Shown: positions 3,680 through 33,808 of the stretch, one piece after another
Layout of the letters: every line of letters begins with the position of its first letter
How positions within the stretch are numbered: position 1 is the first letter of the stretch
Assembly (NCBI GenBank): GCA_900318375.1
Contig: ONKG01000036.1
Location: 1 to 33,808 of the forward strand
Length of the DNA: 33,808 bases
Reading direction: 5' to 3'
Source of the DNA: an uncultured Lachnospiraceae bacterium
GTDB taxonomy: Bacteria > Bacillota > Clostridia > Lachnospirales > Lachnospiraceae
Program-made: the position numbers and the translations under genes
The notes under the pieces: model-generated
Databases searched by the model: none
What the model was told of the DNA's origin: nothing
The model's input: only the letters and a program-made list of their open reading frames with translations

Positions 3680-3727
3680 ATTAAATGGGTATCCTTTCAG
3701 ACTTTAGGCAGGAGGAGACAGGAGGGG

Positions 3728-3790
3728 AGGAGACAGGGGACGGTTCTCCGTCTCCTGCTTCAGGAGACAGAGAACCGTCCCCTGTCTCCT
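3728..3790. repeat. REP-like palindrome with GGGGACGGTTCT core
   Basis: A 30-bp inverted repeat (3728-3757 with 3761-3790, one mismatch) encloses a 3-nt loop. The core GGGGACGGTTCT is flanked by copies of the word GGAGACAG/GTCTCCTG, and further copies of that word extend over about 3705-3815. It lies between the GH32 stop and the HAD start. It resembles repetitive extragenic palindromes mobilised by RAYT/IS200-like Y1 transposases; that link is inference, and no transposase is in the window. It would form a very stable RNA hairpin without a U-tract. Confidence 0.8.
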
Positions 3791-3828
3791 GTCTCCTTTC
3801 TGTCTCCTCGTTTTGATATCCTTTCAAA

Positions 3829-18313: not shown

Positions 18314-18361
18314 GTTCGCACCTCCGCCTTATAAAGACGCTGTTCATTCTTCCACCGCTTT

Positions 18362-18496
18362 TCGCTCCCGGGAGCAGCAGCGCGGGGAGAAATCCCGAAA
18401 CGGGTTTCTCCGATGTGATCACAGGATGTTTGCAGCGTCCCGGGGCACAAAGATCCGGAGTGAAAAATATCGTATCGACGATATTTTCACTCTTCG
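18362..18496. repeat. Right copy of the diverged repeat flanking cdaR
   Basis: TTTCTCCGATGTGATCACAG, GGATGTTTGCAGC and a TATCGACGATATTTTCACTC segment match the left copy at 17015-17192 in order and orientation. The end of this copy forms a good hairpin (GTGAAAAATATCGT with ACGATATTTTCAC, about 18461-18491). It lies in the 5' leader of the cdaR-like gene. Confidence 0.65.
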
Positions 18497-29181: not shown

Positions 29182-30030
29182 TCAGGTGTCGGCGCCGCAC
29201 AGTCCCAGGTCGATGAAGGCCTTCAGGAGGCCATCCTCTGACACTGCGGGACAGACGATGTCGCTCTCCTCTTTCAGGGCTTTGCTGCCGTTGTCCATGC
29301 AGACGCTGACAGCCACTGTGCGGATCATTTCCAGATCGTTCATGCTGTCGCCGAATCCGATGGTGTCCTCCACGGACATGCCCAGCGCGTCGCAGATCCT
29401 GAGGATCCCTCTGCCTTTGTCATATTTGCGGTTGATCAGCTCCCCGTTCAGGCAGCCTTTGGCTTCGACATGCTGGAGCACAAAAGCGTAGTCTTTTTCC
29501 AGAGCGGCCCGGGCCTCGTCCAGCTGGCTGTTCTCCAGACACATGACGACGACCTTGTAGATGGGCCTGCCGTCCCATTCGCTGATGGGATGGATGTCCA
29601 GCTGCCCGGCCAGGGCGGCCCGCCAGCGTTCGATCTCACTGTTGCCGCGGTCTGCCGCGCTGTTGTGGGCTCCCAGGAATTCATCCAGCTTCTCATCCCC
29701 GTAGGTACAGTCTTTGGCTTCGATCGTGCAGAATACGCCGCCGTTATGAAGGGTGCGGAGGGCTGTCTCCGTATCCTCCCTGGACATGGGCATATCATAG
29801 ATCACTTTGTCTCCGATGGTCACATAACCGCCGGCGCCGGCCACTACACCGTCAAAACCGTACTGAAGCAGGGGCGACAGCATGGCATAATTGCGCCCTG
29901 AGCATAAAAAGACCAGATGCCCCTTTGCCTGGGCGGCCCGAATGGCCCGCAGGGCGCTTTCGGGCGGTTCGTTATGTCCCGGCAGCGTCAGTGTTCCGTC
30001 AATATCCAGAAAAATAAGTTTACGTTCCAT
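29182..30030 (-). CDS. HAD-superfamily (Cof-type) phosphatase
   Basis: Cof-like phosphatase of 282 aa. Motif I is FLDIDGTL (residues 7-14, nucleophile Asp9), motif II CSGR (about 43-46), the KGRGILRI lysine region near 208, and motif IV GFGDSMNDLEMI (about 227-238). A large cap domain lies between about 85 and 200. The substrate is unknown. Its place between the LacI regulator and scrA suggests a sugar phosphate, perhaps relieving sugar-phosphate overload (inference). AAGGGGAAG lies 6 nt before the ATG at 30030. It is unlike the HAD protein at 2903-3679 outside the motifs. Confidence 0.87.
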   Translation of the reverse strand: MERKLIFLDIDGTLTLPGHNEPPESALRAIRAAQAKGHLVFLCSGRNYAMLSPLLQYGFDGVVAGAGGYVTIGDKVIYDMPMSREDTETALRTLHNGGVFCTIEAKDCTYGDEKLDEFLGAHNSAADRGNSEIERWRAALAGQLDIHPISEWDGRPIYKVVVMCLENSQLDEARAALEKDYAFVLQHVEAKGCLNGELINRKYDKGRGILRICDALGMSVEDTIGFGDSMNDLEMIRTVAVSVCMDNGSKALKEESDIVCPAVSEDGLLKAFIDLGLCGADT

Positions 30031-30428
30031 ATTTCTTCCCCTTTCTTAATCAAACCACCCAGGCGGCCGGCCTGCTGCTGTGCCGGCCGGAACTATGTCT
30101 GATACCGCTGGTATCATTCACTGGCATGCCCGGCCTGAAGGACATATGAAAATCCCGGTCGCAGGCTGTGCCTGTCCTGTGCTGCCCGTAAACAAAAACT
30201 CCGGACGGCCCGGAGTTTCTGTCTGTATGCTCTGCCGGGCAGCGGCCCGGAACACCCCAAATGTTCCGGCCGGACCCGGGTGTAACCCTGTGCCTTTTCT
30301 CCCTTCCTGTCCGGCCGCCGGCCAGCCTCCTGTTCAAAAAGACACATTTGCTATATCCCAAAGACTTCATATCTCCCAGAAATATGAAGCTCCTCTGAAA
30401 TCAACCGTTTTCTTTCCTGCTTCGCTTA
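30031..30428. other. GC-rich gap between lacI and HAD gene, with a minus-strand terminator
   Basis: A 9-bp stem (AAACTCCGG, 30196-30204, with 30210-30218) is followed on the minus strand by TTTTTGTTT, a likely terminator for the LacI gene. Many GCCGGCC/CCGGCCGG words recur (30062-30098, 30260-30325). A small hairpin (CTTCATAT/ATATGAAG, 30365-30389) lies near the lacI stop. I see no gene. Confidence 0.6.
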
Positions 30429-31412
30429 CTAAACCGATTCCCGTTCCAGCAGTTCGAAAGGAAGCATCTCCCTGCTGTCCCGGCCGGCCGTCTGCCCGCC
30501 GATGAGATCCAGCAGGAGCCTGGCCGCTTTCTCCCCGCAGCCTCTGAAGTCCAGACGGATCGTTGTCAGGGCAGGATTGGAGACCCTGCCTGCCCAGCTG
30601 TTGCCAAAGCCGGCAACACTGACATCCTCCGGTACCTTTCTGCCCTTTTCTTTCAAAACGCGCATGGCTCCCAGAGCGATGGCATCAGTAGCACAGATCA
30701 CACCGTCCAGATCGGGCGCTTCCTCCAGCAGCTCCGCCATACATTTCCTGCCGGATTCCGCGTTGAATTCACCGATCCTGCGGGGCATGCTCTCACTCTC
30801 CATACCTGCCTCCCGCAGGGCCAGCTGAACGCCCAGGCGCCGGGCCAGTCCCGCTGCCAGGTCCCGTTCCGTGACGCCGATATAGGCGATCTTCTTTCTG
30901 CCTCTGGCGATCATGTGCTCTGCCAGAGTGGCTGCGGCATAGTAATCATTGTGGTATACACAGGGCATCCCTTCAAAGTTCTGGCCAGTAATGACGACCG
31001 GAATCCGCATTTCCGAAATCAGGGCTTCTTTTTCCGGCGTCATGCTTCCGGCCATCAGAATGATTCCGGCGACCTGGTTGTTCTGCATCAGCTCCAGATA
31101 GCGGATCTCCTTCTCATCACTCAGCTCCGCGTTTCCCAGCAGGGTCATATAGCCGGCTTCCGCAAGGGTATCGCTGATTCCGGCCATGACGGCGCTGACC
31201 GAATCCGAGTGGATCTTGGGGACGATCACACCGACCTGCCCGCCCCGGCCGGTCCGCATGGACCGGGCCATCAGATTCGGACGGTAACCGGTAAGCTCTA
31301 TGGCTTTCCGTATCTTTTCTCTTTTCTGATCGCTCAGCGAGCCTCCATTTATATAACGGCTCACAGCCGCGGAGGATACGCCCGCCAGCTGCGCAACTTC
31401 CTTAATAGTCAT
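30429..31412 (-). CDS. LacI-family transcriptional regulator (ScrR-like)
   Basis: Sugar-responsive repressor of 327 aa. A helix-turn-helix at residues 2-24 (IKEVAQLAGVSSAAVSRYIN) and hinge region (YRPNLMARSMRTG, about 43-55) are followed by a periplasmic-binding-protein-like sensor core (VGVIVPKI, GIILMAG, VYHNDYYAA, IGVTERD, ICATDAIALGAM). Its operator is likely the TGAAAACGTTTACA site at the scrA promoter, a natural LacI-family palindrome. ScrR is the likely role from context. The start at 31412 has only a weak RBS (AGAG). Transcribed with the HAD gene or alone. Confidence 0.88.
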   Translation of the reverse strand: MTIKEVAQLAGVSSAAVSRYINGGSLSDQKREKIRKAIELTGYRPNLMARSMRTGRGGQVGVIVPKIHSDSVSAVMAGISDTLAEAGYMTLLGNAELSDEKEIRYLELMQNNQVAGIILMAGSMTPEKEALISEMRIPVVITGQNFEGMPCVYHNDYYAAATLAEHMIARGRKKIAYIGVTERDLAAGLARRLGVQLALREAGMESESMPRRIGEFNAESGRKCMAELLEEAPDLDGVICATDAIALGAMRVLKEKGRKVPEDVSVAGFGNSWAGRVSNPALTTIRLDFRGCGEKAARLLLDLIGGQTAGRDSREMLPFELLERESV

Positions 31413-31471
31413 AGCTTATCTCTAACAGGGATACTGCCTGAATACTACGGTTCTGCAGGTTTACGGATTCC

Positions 31472-31507
31472 TGCGTTCACAGGAAGTCCCCGCCTCCTGT
31501 GAACGCA
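31472..31507. repeat. Perfect 13-bp inverted repeat between the GH13 fragment and lacI
   Basis: TGCGTTCACAGGA (31472-31484) pairs perfectly with TCCTGTGAACGCA (31495-31507), loop of 10 nt. It lies 13 bp past the glycosidase stop codon. No U-tract follows in either direction, so it could be a weak terminator, mRNA stabiliser or protein site. Confidence 0.6.
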
Positions 31508-31520
31508 TATGATCGTCAAT

Positions 31521-32045
31521 TCATGCTTCCGGCTTTTCCTCTGCCGCGGGCTCCGCAGCCGCCTTCTCTTCCGCTTTTACAGGGGCGGCTTCCGCCTTTT
31601 TGGCCGCGGGCTTGCGGGTCCTTTTGGCCGCTGCCTTTTTGGCAGGTTTCTCAGGAGCGGCTTCCGCCTTTTCCTCTGCCGCAGGCGCTTCCGCTGCCGG
31701 CGCTTCCGCTGCTTTTACCTCTTTTTTGGGAGCGGCTTTTTTCCGGGCCGGTTTCTTTGCCGCCGGTTTTTTGGCTGCCGGCTTTTCCGCGGGCGCTTCC
31801 GCTTTTACTTCTTCCGCCTTCACTTCTTCGGTCTTTACTTCTTCCGCTTTGACCGCTTCCGCTTTAATGGCGGGCACCTTTCTCATGGGCCGCTTGCGGT
31901 TGAAGCTGGTCATCAGCCATACAAATCCGTAAGGCTCCAGGCGGTAGTTCTCGGCCAGGCAGTGCTCGCCGGTCACAAGGTTGTAGTAATCCTCGACTTC
32001 GCTGATCCAGGCGGTCTGTTCACCGTCACTGAAGTTGAAGAGGGC
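31521..32045 (-). CDS. C-terminal part of a GH13-like glucosidase with Lys/Ala/Glu-rich tail (5' part lost at a junction)
   Basis: The protein after the junction starts ALFNFSDGEQTAWI, then YYNLVTGEHC and YRLEPYGFVWL. This is the C-terminal beta-domain of GH13 enzymes of the amylosucrase / alpha-glucosidase type, not YidC. A tail of about 115 residues follows, of repeated KAEEVKAE and AAKKPA-type units, lacking any known domain and probably disordered. The catalytic part is missing because Bacteroidota yidC is joined in frame at 32031-32045, forming one open frame 31521-33419. By position upstream of the LacI gene and scrA, the full gene probably encoded a sucrose- or alpha-glucoside-cleaving enzyme (inference). 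Confidence 0.65.
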   Translation of the reverse strand, partial: ALFNFSDGEQTAWISEVEDYYNLVTGEHCLAENYRLEPYGFVWLMTSFNRKRPMRKVPAIKAEAVKAEEVKTEEVKAEEVKAEAPAEKPAAKKPAAKKPARKKAAPKKEVKAAEAPAAEAPAAEEKAEAAPEKPAKKAAAKRTRKPAAKKAEAAPVKAEEKAAAEPAAEEKPEA

Positions 32046-33369
32046 AATCCAGATAGGTGCCTGAATCAGCATCGGCAGACAGCCCCCCATGGGCGAAACG
32101 CCATATTGCGAGTAGAGCTGCATCATCTCCTGCTGTTTCTTCATGGCGTCTTCCTGCTTGGGATATTTCTTGTTGAGCTCGTCGATTTTGGGCTTCAGAA
32201 CGCGCATACGTGCGCTGGCGAGGTAGCTCTTCTTGGTGGCGGGGTAGACGAGTGCCTTGACGATGATCGTCAGCAAGAGGAGTACGAGTCCCATGTGGAG
32301 TCCGAATCCCTTGAGCCAGTCGAAGAGGTAGATGATGAACCAGCGGTTGATCCATCGTACGATGGGCCATCCGAGGTAGACGAGGTCTTCGAGTTCGAGG
32401 TCTTTGTCGGCGATGAGGCTGAGGTCATTGTGAGCCTTCAGGGTGTGGAAGTCATTGGGACCGAGGTACATCTGCAGTTGCGTGGGCTGTGTTCCCGTGG
32501 GGTCAAAGGCGGTCTGCATCGTTGCCTCGTAGTTCTTCAGGTATCCTTGTCCTTTCTCGTAGAGTTTGGAAGTAAGGTGGACATCGTGGAACTCCTGCTG
32601 GCTGATGAGCACGGCGGAGAAGAACTGGTTCTTGAATGCAATCCAGTCGAGGTTCTCTTCTATGTCCTTTTCCTTGTCGGAGGTTTCGGAGAGGTAGTCT
32701 GTGCTGCCATCGGCTTCGTGGTATCGGATGCAGGCATAGCGCTGCTCGAAGTCGAATCCTTTCTCGAGCTGGCGGGCTCGGTCAGTCCAGCGGAGGTCGA
32801 GAGTGCGCATGGACGGGGCGAAGAGGTTGTTGATGCCTCGGGCAGTGACGACCATGTCGAGCATATAGGAGTTCGGATGCAGGCAGTAGTCAATGTCGAG
32901 GGAACCGGAGGCGAGGGGGAGGCGGAGGGTGATGGCCTTGTCTGTGCGATTAAGCGCATCACCCGACTCGGACTCGAAAGGTGAAGGTCCGGAGGAAGAA
33001 ACTACTTGAAAGTAGAGGTCGCGGGTGACGATGTTTTCCTGCTTTCCGGCGAGGGAGAGGGTCATGCTGGCATCTTCCTTGCTGAGGAGTCGCACGGGCT
33101 GCTTCTGCTGGTCGAGGTGGTTCTTGATGACGGCTTCCTCCACCATACCGCCATGGGTGTTGATGGTGATGCGGACGAGCTCATTCTCGAGGGTGATGAG
33201 CTGCTCTGTGCCCTGGCTTACAGCAAAGAGTGCTGAGGTGGAGTCGATGGGAGTGGAGGCAGAACTGGATGACTCGGCTGCAGCTGCCGCAGCTTCGGCT
33301 TCGAGACCAGGTGAATGCGATGAGCACAGCTGCCATGAGGACGAATCCTGTAACGGTGTTTTTATCCAT
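32031..33369 (-). pseudogene. yidC: Membrane protein insertase YidC (Bacteroidota type), frameshifted and truncated
   Basis: YidC inserts and folds inner-membrane proteins. The start MDKNTVTGFVLMAAVLIAF (33369) is the Bacteroidota YidC N-terminal membrane anchor. A frameshift at 33303-33306 moves the reading frame; it then continues with an Ala/Glu linker, the large periplasmic domain (LITLENELVRITINTHGG; YLGPNDFHTL), and the insertase core through KIDELNKKYPKQEDAMKKQQ and GGCLPMLIQAPIWIALFNF. After 32045 the sequence stops being YidC, so the last transmembrane helices are absent. Firmicutes YidC/SpoIIIJ lacks the periplasmic domain, so this piece is foreign to the rest of the window. No Shine-Dalgarno, as usual in Bacteroidota. 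Confidence 0.88.
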
Positions 33370-33423
33370 TGATGCTTTTTTTCTTTTTTTTTCTTCCGAC
33401 GGGAAGCCGTCGGACACACGGAA

Positions 33424-33808
33424 TTATGATTGGATTTCTTCGTTAATGTCTTCGATGTATTTGAGCAGTTCTTCGCGCCCCAGCCGTGTCTCGGCAGAGG
33501 TTACGAAGTGTGGCGGGAGTGGTTCCCAGTCCTCTGCAAGGCGTGTGAGGTAGGCATTGATGTTCTCCGTCAGACGGGCACGGCTGAGCTTGTCGGCCTT
33601 GGTGAAGACGATGCTGAAGGGCACGTTGCTCTCTCCCAGCCAGTTCATGAACTCGAGGTCAATCTGCTGTGGCTCATGGCGGCAGTCGATGAGGACAAAG
33701 AGGTTGGAGAGCTGACGTCGCTGGAGAATGTATCCTGAGATCATCTGTTCGAGCTTGGCGCGCTGTGTCTTGCTGCGCTGGGCAAAGCCGTAGCCTGGGA
33801 GGTCTACG
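33424..33808 (-). CDS. engB: Ribosome-biogenesis GTPase YihA/YsxC/EngB, 5' end beyond the window
   Basis: Small GTPase needed for 50S subunit assembly. The visible 127 residues begin in G3 (VDLPGYGFA), followed by the switch region, [19 protein letters not shown]4 TKAD (in FTKADKLSR) and G5-like TSAET near the end, stop TAA at 33424-33426. The G1 P-loop lies beyond 33808. The reading frame runs to the window edge, so the internal Met at 33744 is not the start. It lies 54 bp upstream of yidC on the same strand and shares its non-Firmicute look. Confidence 0.92.

Follow-up and report, generated by a model that had tools for sequence, protein, structure and literature searches.

The long open reading frame at 31521-33419 on the minus strand of the window, the window being one whole contig of 33,808 bases (G000:C64), is most simply interpreted as an artefact of assembly or library preparation, i.e. 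a misjoin, and not as a gene fusion; from the sequence comparisons described here, we would put the probability of this reading at about 0.95. The frame, which has 632 codons for 632 aa, consists of the first three quarters of a Bacteroidota YidC followed by a GH13 gene end (169 codons past the motif ALFNF), and it is very unlikely that a real protein is made from it. A first-pass annotation had described the frame as a Bacteroidota YidC turning into a GH13 end, and had attributed it to a false overlap or microhomology join. The description is borne out by the domains and the DNA matches on each side, and the attribution is supported in that both parent genes are intact elsewhere, with the block at which they meet uninterrupted there. 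The genome around the window comprises 3.93 Mb in 193 contigs, at 82.28% completeness and 4.65% contamination. Judged by DNA comparison, the contig is a mosaic of three sources, the nearest along its length being the same-genus genome G010 (~29.3 kb), a G043-like source, also of the genus (2.7 kb), and a RUG11694-like source (1.8 kb). The earlier picture of two differing sides thus holds for the switch at the junction, but is too simple for the part below it, which follows two same-genus sources.

Table 1. Features of the contig and of its two junctions
Feature	Position	Strand	Description
Main contig part	1..29338		Collinear with G010:C33 (reversed), then G010:C23; pieces 72-95% identical
HAD-type hydrolase gene (Hydrolase_3)	29182..30030	-	In-frame mosaic: C-terminal 63 residues as G010, rest as G043
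Second junction	29339..29364		Block of 26 bp on which window, G010 and G043 agree; 2.7 kb from the first junction
G043:C31-like segment	29365..32045		HAD N-terminal part, LacI-type regulator 30429-31412, GH13 end
GH13 gene end	31521..32045	-	Final 174 codons, counting ALFNF, and stop codon, with Lys/Ala-rich tail; intact 743-aa homologue L121:13547-15778
Junction	32031..32045		15 bp common to both sources, 19 bp to the reference loci L003 and L121
Bacteroidota yidC piece	32031..33369	-	Cut after codon no. 482 of 648 (L003 numbering); start out of frame
77-bp gap site	33306..33306	-	77 bp of L003 absent; native ATG (33369) thus out of frame
engB/ysxC 3' part, Bacteroidota	33424..33808	-	Cut by contig end; within the 98.8% L003 match

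A distance of 1.8 kb separates the junction from the contig end, and both of the genes joined there are cut. Above 32031 the window matches one Bacteroidales locus, L003, at 93-99% (93.2% over 32031-33306 and 98.8% over 33306-33808), while below 32031 and down to ~29339 it matches the same-genus genome G043 at 97-99% (96.8% over 29248-32049 and 98.6% over 30357-32049). The block between them, GAAGTTGAAGAGGGC, occurs once in the window, and the earlier claim of a 15-bp identical block at ALFNF was confirmed, since L003 and the G043 GH13 locus have the block in identical form. The window is unlike both loci at 32046 and like both at 32047-32049, and the similarity to G043 stops at 32049. Comparing L003 (11.5 kb) with the G043 locus L121 (18.3 kb), the longest sequence common to the two is this very block, at 19 bp, and such sharing is expected by chance 0.002 times in random DNA of equal base content. 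Both proteins read ALFNF at the block, as GEKLIALFNFSDGEQ in GH13 and as APIWIALFNFVPNA in YidC, and it is because the phase is the same that the frame stays open. Repeats of at least 20 bases between 31500 and 33808 were limited to a single weak pair within yidC and codon-level ones in the Lys/Ala tail, and no inverted repeats were found.

On the Bacteroidota side, a search of genome contigs with the frame returned 234 relatives, and the best 80 of the 234 were analysed. Their titles are Bacteroidales, Bacteroidaceae, Prevotellaceae or genera thereof, with the exception of L057 (JAMPGY010000004.1), a 184-kb contig titled Clostridium sp. that carries a Bacteroidota-type yidC and whose title may be wrong. 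The nearest relative among these best 80 of 234 is L003 (RUG11694), where yidC is intact with 648 codons. In 76 of the same 80 loci the DNA similarity ends at 32030-32032 (at 32031 for L003), and in the other 4 at 32036-32049. The YidC halves around ALFNF are adjacent in 79 of the best 80, the 80th, L018, ending there, and none of the 80 Bacteroidota yidC loci matches the GH13 end. Most protein-level matches among the best 80 of 234 do reach ~19 residues past the junction, to query residue 482 or further, and in the three loci inspected this overrun is gapped extension with few identities. The residues past the junction (464-632), which the first-pass annotation had proposed to search separately, gave no match in the best 80 of 234 loci, even at E 1. 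Compared to the Bacteroidota YidC (NF002356; L003:5021-6967, 648 aa), the window copy is without everything past ALFNF and its start is frame-broken; the ends of the 77-bp gap overlap by a single base relative to L003, and the GTG at 33419 is a mere opening of another frame and not a gene start. The genome has a complete YidC of its own, of the short form and 440 aa long, on another contig, with neighbours that, as read from their translations, appear to be dnaA, rnpA, jag and mnmE; a short YidC beside such genes is what would be expected for a Firmicute. When L003:6481-9500 was used as a query for the remainder of the Bacteroidales locus in the same genome there was no match, a search without a positive control that shows little.

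The GH13 side has its matches in the genus of the binned bacterium. Forty-six of 61 genus genomes, among them the window's own, have a match to the 63 residues running from the junction onwards. Outside the window's genome the best match is that of G043, with 100% identity and inside an intact GH13 gene of 743 codons. In all of the 24 other genus loci that were returned (45 other genomes match), the GH13 halves are adjacent and the YidC match is absent. A search of the same genome for the front of the GH13 gene gave, as its best hit, a different, complete copy on contig C128 (84% identical, 496 residues). This copy belongs to a second GH13-LacI-HAD-PTS locus (G000:C128:8379-14144; L122, L124) whose PTS gene, which reaches the contig end, shows 90-92% identity to the PTS gene of the window. 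Two matches to the GH13 end per genome occur in only 2 of the 61 genus genomes, G000 and G058, and therefore more than one population may be mixed in the G000 bin. Long Lys/Ala/Glu-rich tails are carried by the GH13 proteins of both the window (31521-31870) and the L122 gene, and the family nearest to this tail is histone H1-like, at 12.7 versus 80 bits, far under the cut-off. In G043, the region upstream of the intact GH13 gene holds a putative transposase-like gene (L121:16518-17900), read from its translation.

A second source switch was found inside the HAD hydrolase gene. The 26-bp block in which it occurs lies in the part coding for the motif GFGDSMNDLEMI. To the left of the block (29182-29338) the window shows 96.8% identity to G010 against 56.1% to G043; to the right, the identity to G043 is 97.4% (29365-30021) and that to G010 68.9% over the first 61 bases. 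Thus the last 63 residues of the HAD protein are those of G010 letter for letter, and its front is that of G043. The gene order is common to the window and G043:C31 and, along it, the identity rises from 71-77% (83% in one short piece) to 97% inside the HAD gene; left of the second junction the identity to G010 is uneven, in the range listed in Table 1. The second switch fits an artefact, but it might instead be natural recombination, with DNA exchanged by sister species at a conserved motif; this would have about one chance in three. Elsewhere in the G010-like part there are apparently dispersed repeat families, at 18343-18495, where at least 28 G010 matches are listed at 73-98%, and at 3706-3813, a short stretch with many G010 matches on both strands.

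It is most likely that a Bacteroidales engB-yidC fragment was joined, in the assembly or in a chimeric library molecule, to a GH13 end from the genus of the binned bacterium, and that the join took place at the same 15-19 bases coding for ALFNF; the misjoin would have happened there because both genes carry them. We infer that the join arose during assembly or library preparation, not in nature, counting in favour of this the sharp similarity ends at one block, the intact parents elsewhere, the genome's own complete YidC, the 77-bp gap that breaks the frame, and the second switch nearby. The tetranucleotide comparison that the first-pass annotation had called for agrees, by a small margin: the distance of the 1763-bp tail to the rest of the contig is 0.343, whereas 35 half-overlapping pieces of equal length lie at 0.200-0.330. 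However, while the tail is at 0.225 from the rest of L003, the remaining window is also only 0.256 from L003, and composition is therefore weak evidence. A point against a misjoin is that an overlap of 15 bp, or at most 19 bp, is below the smallest k-mer sizes in common assemblers, about 20-27. A plain k-mer repeat alone would thus be insufficient, and the join would require either a read that was itself chimeric, or a step of local assembly or merging, or strains as sources that share more bases than the references do. The rumen study whose genomes carry RUG names, as L003 does, assembled single samples with IDBA-UD and made its co-assemblies with MEGAHIT, starting at k 27 (PMC6785717). A chimeric library molecule, in which template switching during amplification at the 15-19 bp gave hybrid reads that were then assembled, is one route contained within the artefact reading: it would suit an overlap too short for a k-mer repeat and would give the assembler its path, but hybrids should be rare beside the two parents, and as the specific route it is possible but rather unlikely.

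The alternative to any such artefact is a real horizontal transfer, in which a Bacteroidota engB-yidC fragment entered the GH13 gene at the 15-bp microhomology and left a genuine, probably non-functional fusion. The frame is open over its whole length, and sequence alone is no proof of the origin of a join, yet we regard this as highly improbable. The first-pass annotation had named the same fusion in other genomes as what would speak against a false join; with a 335-base query across the junction, a full-length match was obtained in the window's own genome only, and in none of the 61 other genus genomes searched. Twenty-nine of these match, all from query position 157 or later, i.e. on the GH13 side, and the 32 without any match are uninformative. 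A scan of viral contigs for an exact 31-base match to the junction found nothing. Moreover, the foreign part reaches the contig end so that its far side is not seen, the 93-99% identity to one Bacteroidales MAG would mean a very recent event, and such a transfer would have left the GH13 gene cut and YidC truncated and frame-broken. A combined natural history, in which a very recent engB-yidC transfer into a Firmicute lies beside a patch recombined from a sister species at about 29339-32045, is just as improbable.

The domain content of the frame agrees with two genes that were each cut at the junction. YidC_periplas is found at residues 75-362, and NF002356 (NCBIfam) matches residues 35-463 with 477.5 bits at a cut-off of 460, while the NCBIfam YidC models that reach this region stop at residues 461-466. 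The 60KD_IMP domain is incomplete, with residues 376-477 covering only positions 1-98 of 163, and in the L003 YidC it is matched over positions 1-163. No Alpha-amylase catalytic domain, by which a GH13 enzyme would be recognized, was found in the window protein by domain search; it is this domain that is missing in comparison with the GH13 protein with the Lys/Ala-rich tail (L121:13547-15778, 743 aa), the intact G043 homologue having Alpha-amylase at 85-350 of 743. Residues 460-498 of the frame have a below-cut-off likeness to a beta-galactosidase C-terminal domain (E 0.011), as do residues 565-609 of the intact homologue, at E 0.00053 and just below the cut-off. A functional YidC-GH13 fusion protein, which has the open frame in its favour and nothing else, can accordingly be rejected as next to impossible, since both parent domains are cut, the later part of 60KD_IMP being gone and the GH13 catalytic domain lying outside the fused part, and the native start is out of frame.

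Chimeric contigs by misassembly are a known class of error in MAGs, termed relatively rare in the GUNC paper (PMC8201837). The contig resembles such cases in having several sources in one contig with short common sequence at the joins, and differs in that both joins are inside genes and the frame stays open, offering hybrid proteins to a gene caller. Contig-level contamination scores may miss the foreign part, because it makes up only ~5% of the contig. If annotated unchanged, the contig would yield a 'YidC-GH13 fusion' and a cross-phylum transfer, both of them false, and possibly a hybrid HAD hydrolase as well; it provides a clear worked case of how in-frame chimeras can arise at a short coding motif common to two genes.
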